Positions 17,208 through 21,636 of a stretch of 51,366 bases of DNA are shown here, piece by piece (positions within the stretch are counted from its first letter, which is position 1; each line of letters starts with the position of its first letter). Under the pieces are notes generated by a model. It was not told where the DNA came from. It made no database searches and was given only the letters and a program-made list of their open reading frames with translations. The stretch lies in the NCBI GenBank assembly GCA_024508935.1, contig JANINW010000006.1, positions 201,215-252,580 of the forward strand. Reading direction: 5' to 3'. The position numbers and the translations under genes are program-made. This DNA comes from Flavipsychrobacter sp. (GTDB taxonomy: Bacteria > Bacteroidota > Bacteroidia > Chitinophagales > Chitinophagaceae).

Positions 17208-18608
17208 TTAGTAAGCAGTAGATTCAGCAGCCCAGCTAGTCCAACCTTTAGTCCAGTCATTTGACGCATCAAACGCACCACGATAAGCAACAGATTGGAA
17301 ACCACTCAGGCCTGTAAAGTCTGCACCTGAAACCGCAGGAGAAGCAGCTTGCAACAGGAAGTTTGGCGTACCTGAAGTTGCAGAAACAGCAGCAGAATAT
17401 TTATTAGGATCAACCATTTTAATGTCTTCTGCATTGGCGATAACAGAGTTCAATGCTTTCAGGGCTATGAAATATGTTGAATCAGCAGTAGCTGCAGCAT
17501 CACTCTTCCATGGAGTAGCACAACCAGCTATGATATTGTTCATAAATTTCAAAGTGCCATTCTTAACGTTGTTAATAGTTTTAGTACCCTTGGTACCATC
17601 TATATAACAGCCGATTGGGAAACCTACAAATACTGAGTTGAAGATACTTTCTGAAGAGTTACGACGGATCTGAGCGCCGTGCTGAAAGTTGGCATTGATA
17701 CCTGAAGTAGAGCTGCCTGATGTTACCGGGCCTACGATAGTCATGTTAGAGAACATTGCTTTAGTTTGAGGCAGGTTGTCAGAACCATTCGCATCGTTAT
17801 CAGATTCAAAACCATTAGAACCTGAAACGTCAGCTATAGTTTTAGCACGCTGTGCAAGACCGAATTGTACTTTACCAGAGAAACCGAAATCAGTATCAAA
17901 ATCATCATCCCAGCTATAAGTAGCTACCAGGTGATCGCAGTTTACTGTACCGCCAAACCATTCAAACGCATCGTCACCTGAACGATAAACCTGTACATAA
18001 CTGATTGTTGTACCGGCACCAACACCGCCCATTGTAAGGCCATTGATCTCGTTATCAGGAGAATAAGCTATACCCGCAAATTCAATACGCACGTATTTCA
18101 TTATACCTGAGTTATCGTTTGCATCTGTACCACCATAATAGATATATGTTTTTTCATCGCCACCGGCTGTTGGAGTAAGGCCGCCTTCAATTTTGGCTTC
18201 ACCACCAGTTGGATTGATAGGCGCTTTGCCTAAAAGTATAACACCACCCCAATCACCCTGGCTGCGTGCACCTGCAGCTTGTGCAGAAGTAAATATGATA
18301 GGATTGCTTGCAGTACCCTGCGCATCTATTTTACCGCCACGCGAAACTATCAGTGTACCTTTTGTTGCTTTATCACCCATGATGATAGCTCCAGCTTCAA
18401 TTTTCAGGGTAGCACCACTTTTTACATACACGAAACCTTTCAACAAATATTTCTTACCTGCAGAAAAAGTACGGTCAGATGATATATCACCAGATACTTC
18501 TTCTGTGCCTGTTGATGTTGTTGTGGTAGTGTTGTTATTATTTTTGTCTTTTTTACAAGAAGCGAACACAGCTAAAAGCGAAAGGCTGAGTACAAGAATT
18601 TTTTTCAT
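17208..18608 (-). CDS. Lipoprotein with beta-helix-like repeats, partner of the TonB receptor
   Basis: A 466-residue lipoprotein. It has a type II signal with Cys18 in LAVFASC, an Asn/Thr-rich tether (~20-36), then Gly/Asn/Asp-rich sequence with a parallel beta-helix look: KSGATLKIEAGAIIMG, LIVSRGGKIDAQGTASNPIIFTS, WGGVILLGKAP, YVQVYRSGDDAFEWFGGTVN. It may bind substrate at the cell surface or in the periplasm; no catalytic motif was recognised. It lies 86 bp downstream of a TonB-dependent receptor on the same strand, but the gap holds its own Pho-box-like array and -7 box. No SusD-type protein is present. Phosphate regulation is inferred; the function is unknown. Confidence 0.8.
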   Translation of the reverse strand: MKKILVLSLSLLAVFASCKKDKNNNNTTTTTSTGTEEVSGDISSDRTFSAGKKYLLKGFVYVKSGATLKIEAGAIIMGDKATKGTLIVSRGGKIDAQGTASNPIIFTSAQAAGARSQGDWGGVILLGKAPINPTGGEAKIEGGLTPTAGGDEKTYIYYGGTDANDNSGIMKYVRIEFAGIAYSPDNEINGLTMGGVGAGTTISYVQVYRSGDDAFEWFGGTVNCDHLVATYSWDDDFDTDFGFSGKVQFGLAQRAKTIADVSGSNGFESDNDANGSDNLPQTKAMFSNMTIVGPVTSGSSTSGINANFQHGAQIRRNSSESIFNSVFVGFPIGCYIDGTKGTKTINNVKNGTLKFMNNIIAGCATPWKSDAAATADSTYFIALKALNSVIANAEDIKMVDPNKYSAAVSATSGTPNFLLQAASPAVSGADFTGLSGFQSVAYRGAFDASNDWTKGWTSWAAESTAY

Positions 18609-18627
18609 TTGGTTGTTAATTTTGGTG

Positions 18628-18635
18628 CGAAATTA
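18628..18635 (-). promoter_or_regulatory. Predicted -7 box of the beta-helix lipoprotein gene
   Basis: TAATTTCG on the minus strand is one mismatch from TAnnTTTG and lies 19 nt before the start codon. It is 8 bp downstream of the 11-bp-period array, the same spacing as in front of the TonB receptor. Confidence 0.45.
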
Positions 18636-18643
18636 TCAGTGGC

Positions 18644-18683
18644 GTGTAACCGGCATGTTACGCCGGCATTAACTATATGTTAA
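18644..18683 (-). promoter_or_regulatory. Pho-box-like array, four 7-bp units at 11-bp period
   Basis: Plus-strand units: GTGTAAC (18644), ATGTTAC (18655), GCATTAA (18666) and ATGTTAA (18677), with 4-bp spacers and exact 11-bp phase. On the minus strand the units read (G/T)TAACAT-like. The design of 7-bp direct repeats with 4-bp spacers upstream of the -10 is that of the E. coli PhoB box. Confidence 0.65.
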
Positions 18684-18694
18684 GTATCGCTGTT

Positions 18695-21538
18695 TTAGAA
18701 TTTATACGTGTATGTTAAAGAGAAAGTAGTACCAGGTTTGAATTCTTTAAGCACGTAATCCTGGTTTGTTGGGCGATTGGTGCTCTCTTTATTAAAGATG
18801 GCAGGATTATCGAACTTATCGTTCCTGTTCTGGTCGTAATACATGAATATTTTGGCATTGAGTATATCCTTTGCATTCAGGCGCAGCTCGCTCCTTTTAC
18901 TAAGGTTATAAGAAACCTGGCCATCCAATACATTACGTGGATTTTCCCAGACATTACCCAATGTATTATTGCCCCCTTTGGCATTACCTACGAGGTAGAT
19001 GCGTGGTCCAATACGGTTATACAGTACATTGAAATTCAGCTTCCCCTGCATAGCGGCATATCCTAAGCTGGTATTCACCACATAGTTAGACTGGCCCGTC
19101 AACGGGCGTTTAGTTTCTACAGTTTGGTTAGTGGTAATGTCTACATAGCTACTCTTTACCTCTGATTTTATGTAAGCGAGGTTAGCATAGAACGTCAGGT
19201 TTTTAAATACGTTGCTATTCTTTGCAATGAAACCGAGGTTTTTCCTTATCTCCACCTCTGCACCTACGTTTTGCGCAGCAGCAAAGTTCTGGGTAGAAAT
19301 TTCTAACTGGCTGTTCGTTGCGTCTACGATGGCTTCCAGTGTATTATTAAAGTGTTTGTAAAACACAGATGCTGAAAGTATCTCTCCGCCTTTAGGGTAA
19401 TATTCAAACCTCAAGTCTGCATTATGTATCTGGCTGCGTTCCAGGTTAGGATTACCGTAAGACAACGCAGACAATTCATAATCATAATAAGCAAATGGTG
19501 CTAATTCCCTAAACTCTGGCCTTGCTACTGTTTTGTAGTAAGAACCGCGCAGGTTTATCTTATCAGTTAGTGAATAGGTCAGGTTGGCTGATGGCAATAC
19601 ATCTACCCATGTTTTATCTACATGAAGCGGATTGCCTGTTACATCAAACGAATTCAGTTTTACATTAAAAGATTCTACACGCGCACCCCATACCAGACGC
19701 AATTTATCAGTAAACTTGTTATCCAGCATCAGGTAACCGGCAGCAGTTGTTGAGTTCGCATCATATGAATCAGAAGGAAGCGTACCTTCTACCAGAGTGT
19801 AATAATTTTTATCTACAAGATCTTTACCAAATAAGGTTTCAGCAGAACGTGACTTTATCGCATCAGCTTCAGTTGGATCCAATTTGATTTCATTGAGTGT
19901 CAACCCGAGAAAACGTGCGTTGAAATCACGCTGCCTGTACTGACCAAAAGCCCCCACCTTAATAGTCGTCTTATTCAGAAAAGACAATGGCAATGTATAA
20001 TTCACATTAGCAGCATAGATATTTTCTCCCAGTTTAGAATACAGGCGGTTATTCGATTTACCGCTTGTACCAACTTCTGCCAGCATAGGCACAGATGGAT
20101 CGTTGGAAGCATCCATAGGTTTACTGTAAACCAGTTTCCTTTGGTCGGGCTGATCATTTGTAACCCTGTTATAAGTAACCAACCAACCTAGTTTACTTTG
20201 TCCTACACCCATTCTGTGCTCTCCTTCCAATGAAGTTTTGAACAGTGATTTTTGTAACAAGTCGTAGGCAGTATATTTTATGTACTTGCTGCTGGTACCG
20301 TTTATACCTGTGCGCTCCAAATAGTAGTCGTCAAATATCTGGTTGTATATAGTTTTCAATACGATCTTACTTTTTGCAGAAGAATAACCAATATTGAGTA
20401 AGCCACCTAGGTTAGATGAATATTTATATGCGTTATCACCGTAGGTAAAGTCGTTATAGATACGATCCATGTTCGGTTCGCGTGTTTCAGTATGTGCATA
20501 GTTCACACCAGCTATAAAACCGATACGCTTGTTGCCTTTCAAAGAATATACCATTCCGGAAGTAGCCTGCAGGTTGATGCCCGGCAGTGCCTTCCTTTCT
20601 TTTACAGTATAATTATTATTTAATTGGTTGATGGCATTTACATTCTGCTGCTCAGTAAGACCAGACTGAATTGCTTTTGTAGATGGCAGGTTACCTTCCG
20701 GCAGTTTTCTTGAACCATCGTCAAAACCCAGAAAGTCTGTGCTGCTTCTATAGCCTGATTTAAAATCCTTGAAAGTAGACACGCTATTATAAGAAGTACC
20801 TAAAGAAATAGTATTGAAGTTTTGCTCCGGTATCTCTTTGGTAAGGATATTGATAACGCCGCCCGCAAAATCGCCGGGAAGATCTGGTGTAGCAGCCTTG
20901 GTAATAATAATATTATCTACCATTCCGGCTGGTATAATATCGAAAGAGAATGCTTTACGGTTTGGTTCTGTACTTGGCAGCACAGCATTATCTACCATGC
21001 CGGTATTATACCTGTCGCTCAGCCCGCGGATAATAACAAATTTATTATCCTGTATCGTAGTACCGCTAACACGCTTTAATACCTCACCTGTACTGCGGTC
21101 AGGAGATTTCTTAATAACATCGGCAGAAATACCATCTGATATGGCAGCACTATTCTTTTGTATCAGGTAAAGAGAGCTGATATTCTCTTTCTTAAGAGAA
21201 GACTTAACTACCACTTCCTGCAGCTCAGTAGCTTTTGCTTCTGTAATAGTTGTATTTACTGTAACAGTATTATTGTCTGTTACCTTGATATCGTCTACTT
21301 CTTTGGTCTGGTAGCCGATATATTTAATTTCTATTGTGTAGGTACCTGCATCTATCGGCAGGGTAAAATTACCATCCACATCTGTTTGGGTACCTCTTGT
21401 AGTGCCTTTTACCATTATGGTAGCACCAATTATTGCTTCCCCGTTCTTGCCGTCTGAAACCTTGCCCGTTATATTACCTGTGGCAAAAGCCTGCATTGCC
21501 GCGACGAGCAATACAAACATCATTGAAATAATACGCAT
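18695..21538 (-). CDS. TonB-dependent outer-membrane receptor
   Basis: A 947-residue transporter. It has a signal peptide (MRIISMMFVLLVAAMQAFA), a CarboxypepD_reg-like domain (GKVSDGKNGEAIIGATIMVKG, ~22-100), a plug domain (SPDRSTGEVLKRVSGTTIQ, then FVIIRGLSDRYN and DLPGDFAGGVINILTKE, ~120-230) and a 22-strand-type barrel ending TFSLTYTYKF. It imports a ligand across the outer membrane using TonB energy. It lacks an adjacent SusD, so it is not a SusC pair; the neighbour is the beta-helix lipoprotein. The start at 21538 was chosen over a codon at 21550 because it begins the signal. Six Pho-box-like units lie upstream, suggesting phosphate or phospho-compound uptake. Confidence 0.92.
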   Translation of the reverse strand: MRIISMMFVLLVAAMQAFATGNITGKVSDGKNGEAIIGATIMVKGTTRGTQTDVDGNFTLPIDAGTYTIEIKYIGYQTKEVDDIKVTDNNTVTVNTTITEAKATELQEVVVKSSLKKENISSLYLIQKNSAAISDGISADVIKKSPDRSTGEVLKRVSGTTIQDNKFVIIRGLSDRYNTGMVDNAVLPSTEPNRKAFSFDIIPAGMVDNIIITKAATPDLPGDFAGGVINILTKEIPEQNFNTISLGTSYNSVSTFKDFKSGYRSSTDFLGFDDGSRKLPEGNLPSTKAIQSGLTEQQNVNAINQLNNNYTVKERKALPGINLQATSGMVYSLKGNKRIGFIAGVNYAHTETREPNMDRIYNDFTYGDNAYKYSSNLGGLLNIGYSSAKSKIVLKTIYNQIFDDYYLERTGINGTSSKYIKYTAYDLLQKSLFKTSLEGEHRMGVGQSKLGWLVTYNRVTNDQPDQRKLVYSKPMDASNDPSVPMLAEVGTSGKSNNRLYSKLGENIYAANVNYTLPLSFLNKTTIKVGAFGQYRQRDFNARFLGLTLNEIKLDPTEADAIKSRSAETLFGKDLVDKNYYTLVEGTLPSDSYDANSTTAAGYLMLDNKFTDKLRLVWGARVESFNVKLNSFDVTGNPLHVDKTWVDVLPSANLTYSLTDKINLRGSYYKTVARPEFRELAPFAYYDYELSALSYGNPNLERSQIHNADLRFEYYPKGGEILSASVFYKHFNNTLEAIVDATNSQLEISTQNFAAAQNVGAEVEIRKNLGFIAKNSNVFKNLTFYANLAYIKSEVKSSYVDITTNQTVETKRPLTGQSNYVVNTSLGYAAMQGKLNFNVLYNRIGPRIYLVGNAKGGNNTLGNVWENPRNVLDGQVSYNLSKRSELRLNAKDILNAKIFMYYDQNRNDKFDNPAIFNKESTNRPTNQDYVLKEFKPGTTFSLTYTYKF

Positions 21539-21558: not shown

Positions 21559-21566
21559 CAAAAGTC
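21559..21566 (-). promoter_or_regulatory. Predicted -7 box of the TonB receptor gene
   Basis: GACTTTTG on the minus strand is one mismatch from TAnnTTTG and lies 20 nt before the ATG. The 11-bp array ends 8 bp upstream, covering the -33 position. Confidence 0.45.
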
Positions 21567-21574
21567 CAAACTGA

Positions 21575-21636
21575 ATGTTACCACCACTTTACGGGAATGT
21601 TACGCAAACATGAACCTTATGTTAACTGAATATTAA
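21575..21636 (-). promoter_or_regulatory. Pho-box-like array, six 7-bp units at 11-bp period
   Basis: Plus-strand units at exact 11-bp steps: ATGTTAC (21575), ACTTTAC (21586), ATGTTAC (21597), ACATGAA (21608), ATGTTAA (21619), ATATTAA (21630). The 4-bp spacers are unconserved. This is the layout of tandem PhoB sites, and it is longer than the usual two to four units. Confidence 0.7.

Follow-up and report, generated by a model that had tools for sequence, protein, structure and literature searches.

The promoter region of a TonB-dependent receptor gene in Flavipsychrobacter sp. carries a run of six 7-bp direct repeats which, as judged by comparison with related genomes, is very probably the docking site of a phosphate-starvation regulator. 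The run lies in a stretch of 51,366 nucleotides (contig JANINW010000006.1, positions 201,215 to 252,580), the whole of which was analyzed and is called the window below. In the explanation that we consider highly likely, the run is an extended Pho box: a PhoB-type regulator of the same genome (L025) would bind it and switch on the receptor under phosphate limitation, and a four-unit box would do likewise for the neighboring lipoprotein gene. We thereby propose a concrete Pho operator for a family of Bacteroidota, and the comparisons suggest that a widespread receptor and lipoprotein pair is tied to phosphate supply.

A six-unit array directly upstream of the receptor promoter

Read towards the receptor gene, i.e., on the minus strand, the unit consensus of the array is KTAACAT, and the six units (Table 1), counted from the promoter-proximal end, match it at 7, 5, 7, 4, 7, and 6 of 7 positions. 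The exact 11-bp steps noted for the six units were confirmed on the sequence. Scored without any consensus, the self-similarity of the six 7-mers at an 11-bp step amounts to 72/105; the next independent period-11 place in the window reaches 57/105, the best of the other periods from 8 to 30 reaches 65, and 72 was never attained in 200 resamplings of the window under a first-order Markov model (maximum, 63). No other period-11 array in the window is as strong as the receptor array.

A 58-position matrix was built from 32 receptor and lipoprotein arrays, eight weaker or near-duplicate rows of a set of 40 having been left out by choice. With the two window rows removed from it, this matrix gives two matches of at least 10 bits in the window, one at the receptor array (47.9 bits) and one at positions 18626-18683 (44.7 bits). 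In the reversed window, the full matrix gave no such match; the leave-window-out matrix gave none of ≥20 bits in 0.81 Mb of fetched loci read in reverse. A three-unit pattern allowing up to three mismatches has five matches in the whole genome, three of them inside the two window arrays, and the reversed pattern has one. The original prediction spoke of ten units in this stretch, presumably the six of the receptor array and the four before the lipoprotein gene.

It had also placed the end of the array 8 bp before a -7-like box of the receptor gene, and this is borne out by the element listed in Table 1, in which TTTTGC begins exactly 11 bp past the last array unit. The Bacteroidota -7 consensus is TAnnTTTG, and the aligned arrays give TACTTTTGC as the consensus for the element. 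The receptor array has the 7-bp direct repeats, 4-bp spacers, and 11-bp period of a Pho box, and it is located as a Pho box is, just upstream of the putative promoter element, where it would replace the -35/-33 region.

Table 1. Positions in the window of the two arrays, their putative promoter elements, and the genes downstream
Feature	Positions	Strand	Description
Receptor array	21575..21636	minus	Six units, promoter-distal to promoter-proximal: TTAATAT, TTAACAT, TTCATGT, GTAACAT, GTAAAGT, GTAACAT; 11-bp period
-7-like element of receptor gene	21559..21566	minus	GACTTTTG; 8 bp past the array
TonB-dependent receptor gene	18695..21538	minus	947 aa; ATG at 21538-21536; CarbopepD_reg_2, plug, and beta-barrel
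Second array	18644..18683	minus	Four units: TTAACAT, TTAATGC, GTAACAT, GTTACAC; 11-bp period
-7-like element of lipoprotein gene	18628..18635	minus	TAATTTCG; TTTCGC begins 11 bp past the last unit of the second array
Lipoprotein-like protein gene	17208..18608	minus	466 aa; predicted parallel beta-helix

The receptor adjoins a predicted beta-helix lipoprotein

The second array sits within the 86-bp gap that separates the receptor gene from the lipoprotein gene. The lipoprotein-like protein had no Pfam match, and a PDB sequence search returned nothing. Its structure model, in which strands predominate, has a mean pLDDT of 81, and parallel beta-helix proteins ranked top when the model was searched with Foldseek, though with low TM-scores and none of them at an E value of ≤0.001. 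Many positions of the lipoprotein are invariant acidic residues or glycines.

A TonB receptor that adjoins a lipoprotein predicted from its model to be a beta-helix is the arrangement of the receptor/lipoprotein pairs known from low phosphate. The same pairing is seen in PUSIII and PUSIV of Flavobacterium johnsoniae (TonB transporter and lipoprotein FI/FII) and in ElpS/CC0171 of Caulobacter, and it is by this pairing that we liken them to the genes studied here; low-phosphate induction is a feature of the Flavobacterium pairs and of ElpS, and a nearby phoBR is one of PUSIV. According to the accessible text on F. johnsoniae, the TonB transporter/lipoprotein pairs Fjoh_3857/3856 and Fjoh_0545/0546 are strongly induced at low phosphate, and the latter pair is accompanied by phoBR (PMC8115612). 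As far as the accessible text on Caulobacter goes, the lipoprotein ElpS is made under phosphate starvation and its gene lies beside that of a TonB receptor, CC0171, which is reported to be constitutive (PMC2996285), in this unlike the receptor in the control proposed here. The term "pho box" occurs 0 times in these texts, in the form accessible, and the operators of those pairs are undescribed there.

The array is conserved in receptor promoters of relatives

Within the family, 101 of 147 genomes encode a relative of the lipoprotein (E 1e-20), as do 116 of 198 genomes drawn from the phylum (E 1e-40); in many relatives the lipoprotein adjoins the receptor. Forty upstream regions were taken, roughly best first, from the matches in the family, making 41 together with the window; six of them (L066, L067, L077, L079, L095, and L096) had no receptor and do not enter the receptor count. 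A score of at least 20/28 for four units at period 11 is reached in 32 of the 35 receptor upstream regions, window included, and the array is absent from the other three (L062, L074, and L080); at eight other periods, between 7 and 15, the same 35 regions never exceed 20/28. In 27 of the 32 receptor arrays, TTTTGC follows the last unit at a distance of 11 bp. Upstream of the lipoprotein gene, a score of at least 20 was obtained in 16 of the 41 regions, 13 of these 16 being in the same 11-bp phase. With its AT-rich units and imperfect copies, the array might be taken for a chance or low-complexity repeat without function; the resamples that never reached its score, together with its retention, mostly in phase, in nearly all receptor promoters of this set, argue against this, and we give it practically no credence.

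Six units are a common state, since they are found in 10 of the 32 receptor arrays (four units in 18, five in 3, and three in 1) and Taibaiella chishuiensis has an in-register run of eight units that includes a weak one. The unit counts of receptor arrays cluster at 4 and 6, as if gain came pairwise. Strong and weak units alternate in the six-unit arrays of the window and of the receptor genes in L065, L068, L085, and L092.

Twenty receptor loci outside the family were chosen by hand from the 116 genomes with a lipoprotein relative; 11 of them have a matrix match of at least 20 bits, and nine fall below 20 bits. Two loci in which a phoB gene lies beside the receptor pair (L233 and L236) gave no matrix match.

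The same array heads pst operons of relatives

Because PhoU was not found in the window's own genome, the Pho reading of the array was tested at the pst genes of relatives, using a matrix that had not been trained on phosphate genes. Of 34 PhoU places, 32 were used, and two at contig ends (G079 and G145) were left out. The 32 regions comprise 21 pstSCAB-phoU operons with the gene for one type of outer-membrane protein at the front, one PstS-headed operon with an array (L196), five operons without one, L188, and four regions cut by contig ends (L191, L193, L197, and L210). The array lies directly upstream of 20 of the 21 operons headed by the outer-membrane protein, versus 1 of 61 control genes, which were other genes preceded by a gap of ≥60 bp (Fisher p 7e-17); when L161, an operon found by the array search itself, is left out, the count is 19 of 20 (p 3e-16). 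As the pst operons are related to each other, these p values overstate the independent evidence. The 21st operon (L214) is fused to a receptor pair: a single array precedes a continuous series of genes for receptor, lipoprotein, outer-membrane protein, PstSCAB, and PhoU. At the pstSCAB-phoU operons of relatives, the distance from the array to the -7 element is the same as at the receptor genes. No array was found at pst in L186, L187, L189, L192, and L198, four of which have a divergent type of pst and one of which is PstS-first; the 20.7-bit match in L188 lies at a gene upstream of pst and was counted among the controls. Taken with the controls, the arrays at pstSCAB-phoU support the Pho reading put forward in the original prediction. 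The matrix recovers pst operons outside its training set, and therefore the phosphate-controlled genes of the family should be predictable from sequence.

The array search with the matrix was run in 20 genomes, chosen among those with the lipoprotein, and L161 and L178 were fetched because of its matches. PlcP-like metallophosphatase genes with an array were found by this search in L163, L164, L165, L167, and L171 and were met independently in L008 (31.7 bits) and L225 (22.4 bits); a glycosyltransferase gene lies behind the PlcP-like gene in two array-bearing loci. The array also precedes three of seven porin-O/P genes, one of the three having been found through the array search, and it is absent from three porin regions that are unlabelled by the reference and stand outside these seven (L216, L222, and L224). 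Beside the receptor, PiT and PhoU_div genes are present in 5 of 16 named loci (L008, L009, L010, L013, and L017), which come from Chitinophaga, Taibaiella (three loci), and Niastella.

The receptor pair was repeatedly seen to adjoin phosphate uptake genes, in L214, L218, and L222 as well as in the five loci just named; besides the fusion with pstSCAB-phoU in L214, its neighbors are porin-O/P, PhoU_div, or PiT. Most array-bearing pst operons begin with a gene (L161 7202-8416 and its relatives) for an outer-membrane protein-like product of ~390-490 aa. One member was scanned and had no Pfam match at 1e-6; this product is a candidate for a phosphate porin of a separate family.

A candidate regulator and its proposed mode of action

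The genome encodes eight OmpR-type regulators, one of which (L025, on contig C36) is accompanied by an adjacent histidine kinase. Five of the eight were scanned against NCBIfam, and the top match of L025 is PhoB, below cut-off; the regulator and its kinase score below the NCBIfam cut-offs for PhoB and PhoR. The regulator beside phoU in L225 has L025 as the nearest of the eight (52%, versus 31% for the next), and the same is true of the regulators beside the receptor pair in L233 and L236 (43% and 50%). On account of this gene neighborhood of its nearest relatives and of the top match to PhoB, the L025 pair is taken as PhoB/PhoR, so that the genome encodes a putative pair of this kind.

Direct repeats at 11-bp steps are a feature of the wider OmpR family, and the phosphate genes tested in the window's own genome are without the array. 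With eight OmpR-type regulators encoded, the array could belong to one of the other seven, which would answer to another signal and have its pst targets in relatives by coincidence. We consider this improbable, given the arrays at the pst-phoU operons of relatives and the wide margin by which L025 is the nearest of the eight to the regulators found beside phoU and the receptor pair.

Autoregulation of phoB through the array was considered and rejected, as no matrix match was obtained at L025, where only single TTAACAT words are present. Upstream of the phoB-like gene (L025 940-1020) there is an inverted repeat, AAAGGAATGT...ACATTCCTTT, and no array.

With L025 as the regulator, the binding and its dimer number, the activating effect, and the substrate of the receptor system are inferred as follows. 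Under phosphate limitation, L025, whose gene has that of the histidine kinase next to it, would become phosphorylated and would bind the KTAACAT units head-to-tail, as two to three dimers. The bound protein would cover the -33 region and recruit RNA polymerase to the -7 element that follows 8 bp further on, turning on the TonB receptor, and the four-unit second box would switch on the neighboring lipoprotein likewise. At the outer membrane, receptor and lipoprotein may then contribute to capturing a source of phosphorus.

Riemerella anatipestifer belongs to the same phylum as the window's host, and its PhoP motif shares the TTAACA core with the array. In the accessible portion of the study that describes this motif, its most conserved bases are TTTAACA, a TonB receptor promoter is among the EMSA probes, and 34 of 50 direct PhoP targets rise on phoP deletion, one of them a TonB-dependent receptor (PMC9603813). 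That portion describes no tandem array, and in this, as in the rise of most direct targets in the deletion, Riemerella is unlike the system proposed here. The Riemerella targets would fit a PhoB that binds the array and mainly represses or tunes the receptor, which we nevertheless regard as very unlikely: a location 8 bp upstream of the -7 element and a strict 11-bp phase are in keeping with an activator, pst operons have the same operator at their head, and the similar F. johnsoniae pair is, in the text accessible, strongly induced at low phosphate.

Phosphate genes and further boxes in the same genome

Neither PhoU nor Porin_O_P had a match in the window's own genome. The original prediction called for similar arrays at known phosphate genes of this genome; pst-phoU and the porin are absent, and among the genes that could be tested the array was found neither at the PiT and PhoU_div promoter nor at those of the pstS-like gene and phoB. 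PBP_like_2 has two matches, one of which is the pstS-like gene, followed by a 453-aa gene and with no pstC within the 1.5-kb flank. The second was rejected, as it is part of a 327-aa frame resembling a LysR-type regulator.

A two-unit box (TTAATAT, GTAACAT; E 1.7e-4) is located on contig C11 (L169 3292-3325), exactly 11 bp before CTTTGC, and precedes a 119-aa frame and an ABC exporter, which suggests a possible further target in this genome. There is also a second receptor and lipoprotein pair (L062; G000 contig C30, 55021-59600), in which a weaker, in-phase array (26.3 bits) precedes the lipoprotein paralog and none precedes the receptor (18/28), and array-like runs without a clear -7 word occur on C36 and C37. 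The further matrix candidates in this genome are all weaker than the window arrays, and none is at a textbook phosphate gene.

A wider proposal, which we offer tentatively and think rather doubtful, is that the Pho regulon of this genome is small and centered on the receptor-lipoprotein pair, that phosphate is read without a PhoU/Pst brake, that the six-unit operator, as a set of three paired sites, acts as a steep all-or-none switch, and that units are added in pairs (4, 6, 8). Reading phosphate without PhoU and Pst is suggested because phoBR-like genes remain in a genome where PhoU, pst, and porin were not found, and a gain of units in pairs would make dimers, not monomers, the evolutionary step. 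The small regulon is made less probable by the two-unit box on C11, since it suggests further targets.

Comparison with known Pho boxes

The PhoB box of Escherichia coli consists of two 7-nt direct repeat units, 4 nt apart, i.e., of 11-nt units. The array resembles it in its 7-bp units, 4-bp spacers, and 11-bp period, in its location just upstream of a promoter element, and in having pst operons among its targets; it differs in the unit (KTAACAT here, CTGTCAT in E. coli), in having mostly four to six (once eight) units per run, and in adjoining the Bacteroidota -7 element. The PhoP operators of Streptomyces, which have simple and complex forms and are made of core and weaker 11-nt direct repeat units, are alike in comprising more than two 11-nt units and in mixing strong and weak ones, whereas their consensus, GTTCACC, differs and the fixed phase to the -7 element is a feature of the array described here. 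Cyanobacterial SphR boxes, in which at least three 8-bp repeats follow in tandem and are separated by 3-bp linkers (CTTAACCT), share the TTAAC core, the 11-bp period, and the presence of three or more units; they belong to another phylum, and fewer units are described for them in the accessible parts of the sources.

The accessible parts of four papers deal with direct repeats in 11-nt units, with complex operators, and with runs of three or more tandem boxes (PMC4415409, PMC7866108, PMC6283541, and PMC1906773). The statement that no six-unit version had been described holds for six units as such, none being described in the accessible parts of the literature found, that on Bacteroidota included; it does not extend to long operators in general, as larger ones are known from Streptomyces and ones of at least three units from cyanobacteria. 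Low-phosphate transcriptomes of Bacteroidota exist, and PhoB of Bacteroides fragilis binds the pst promoter according to the accessible text (PMC3547664); an operator in the form of such a tandem array was not found in the accessible parts of this literature. Relative to the known Pho boxes, the array is a variant that has a larger number of units, a different consensus, and a fixed phase with respect to the -7 element.
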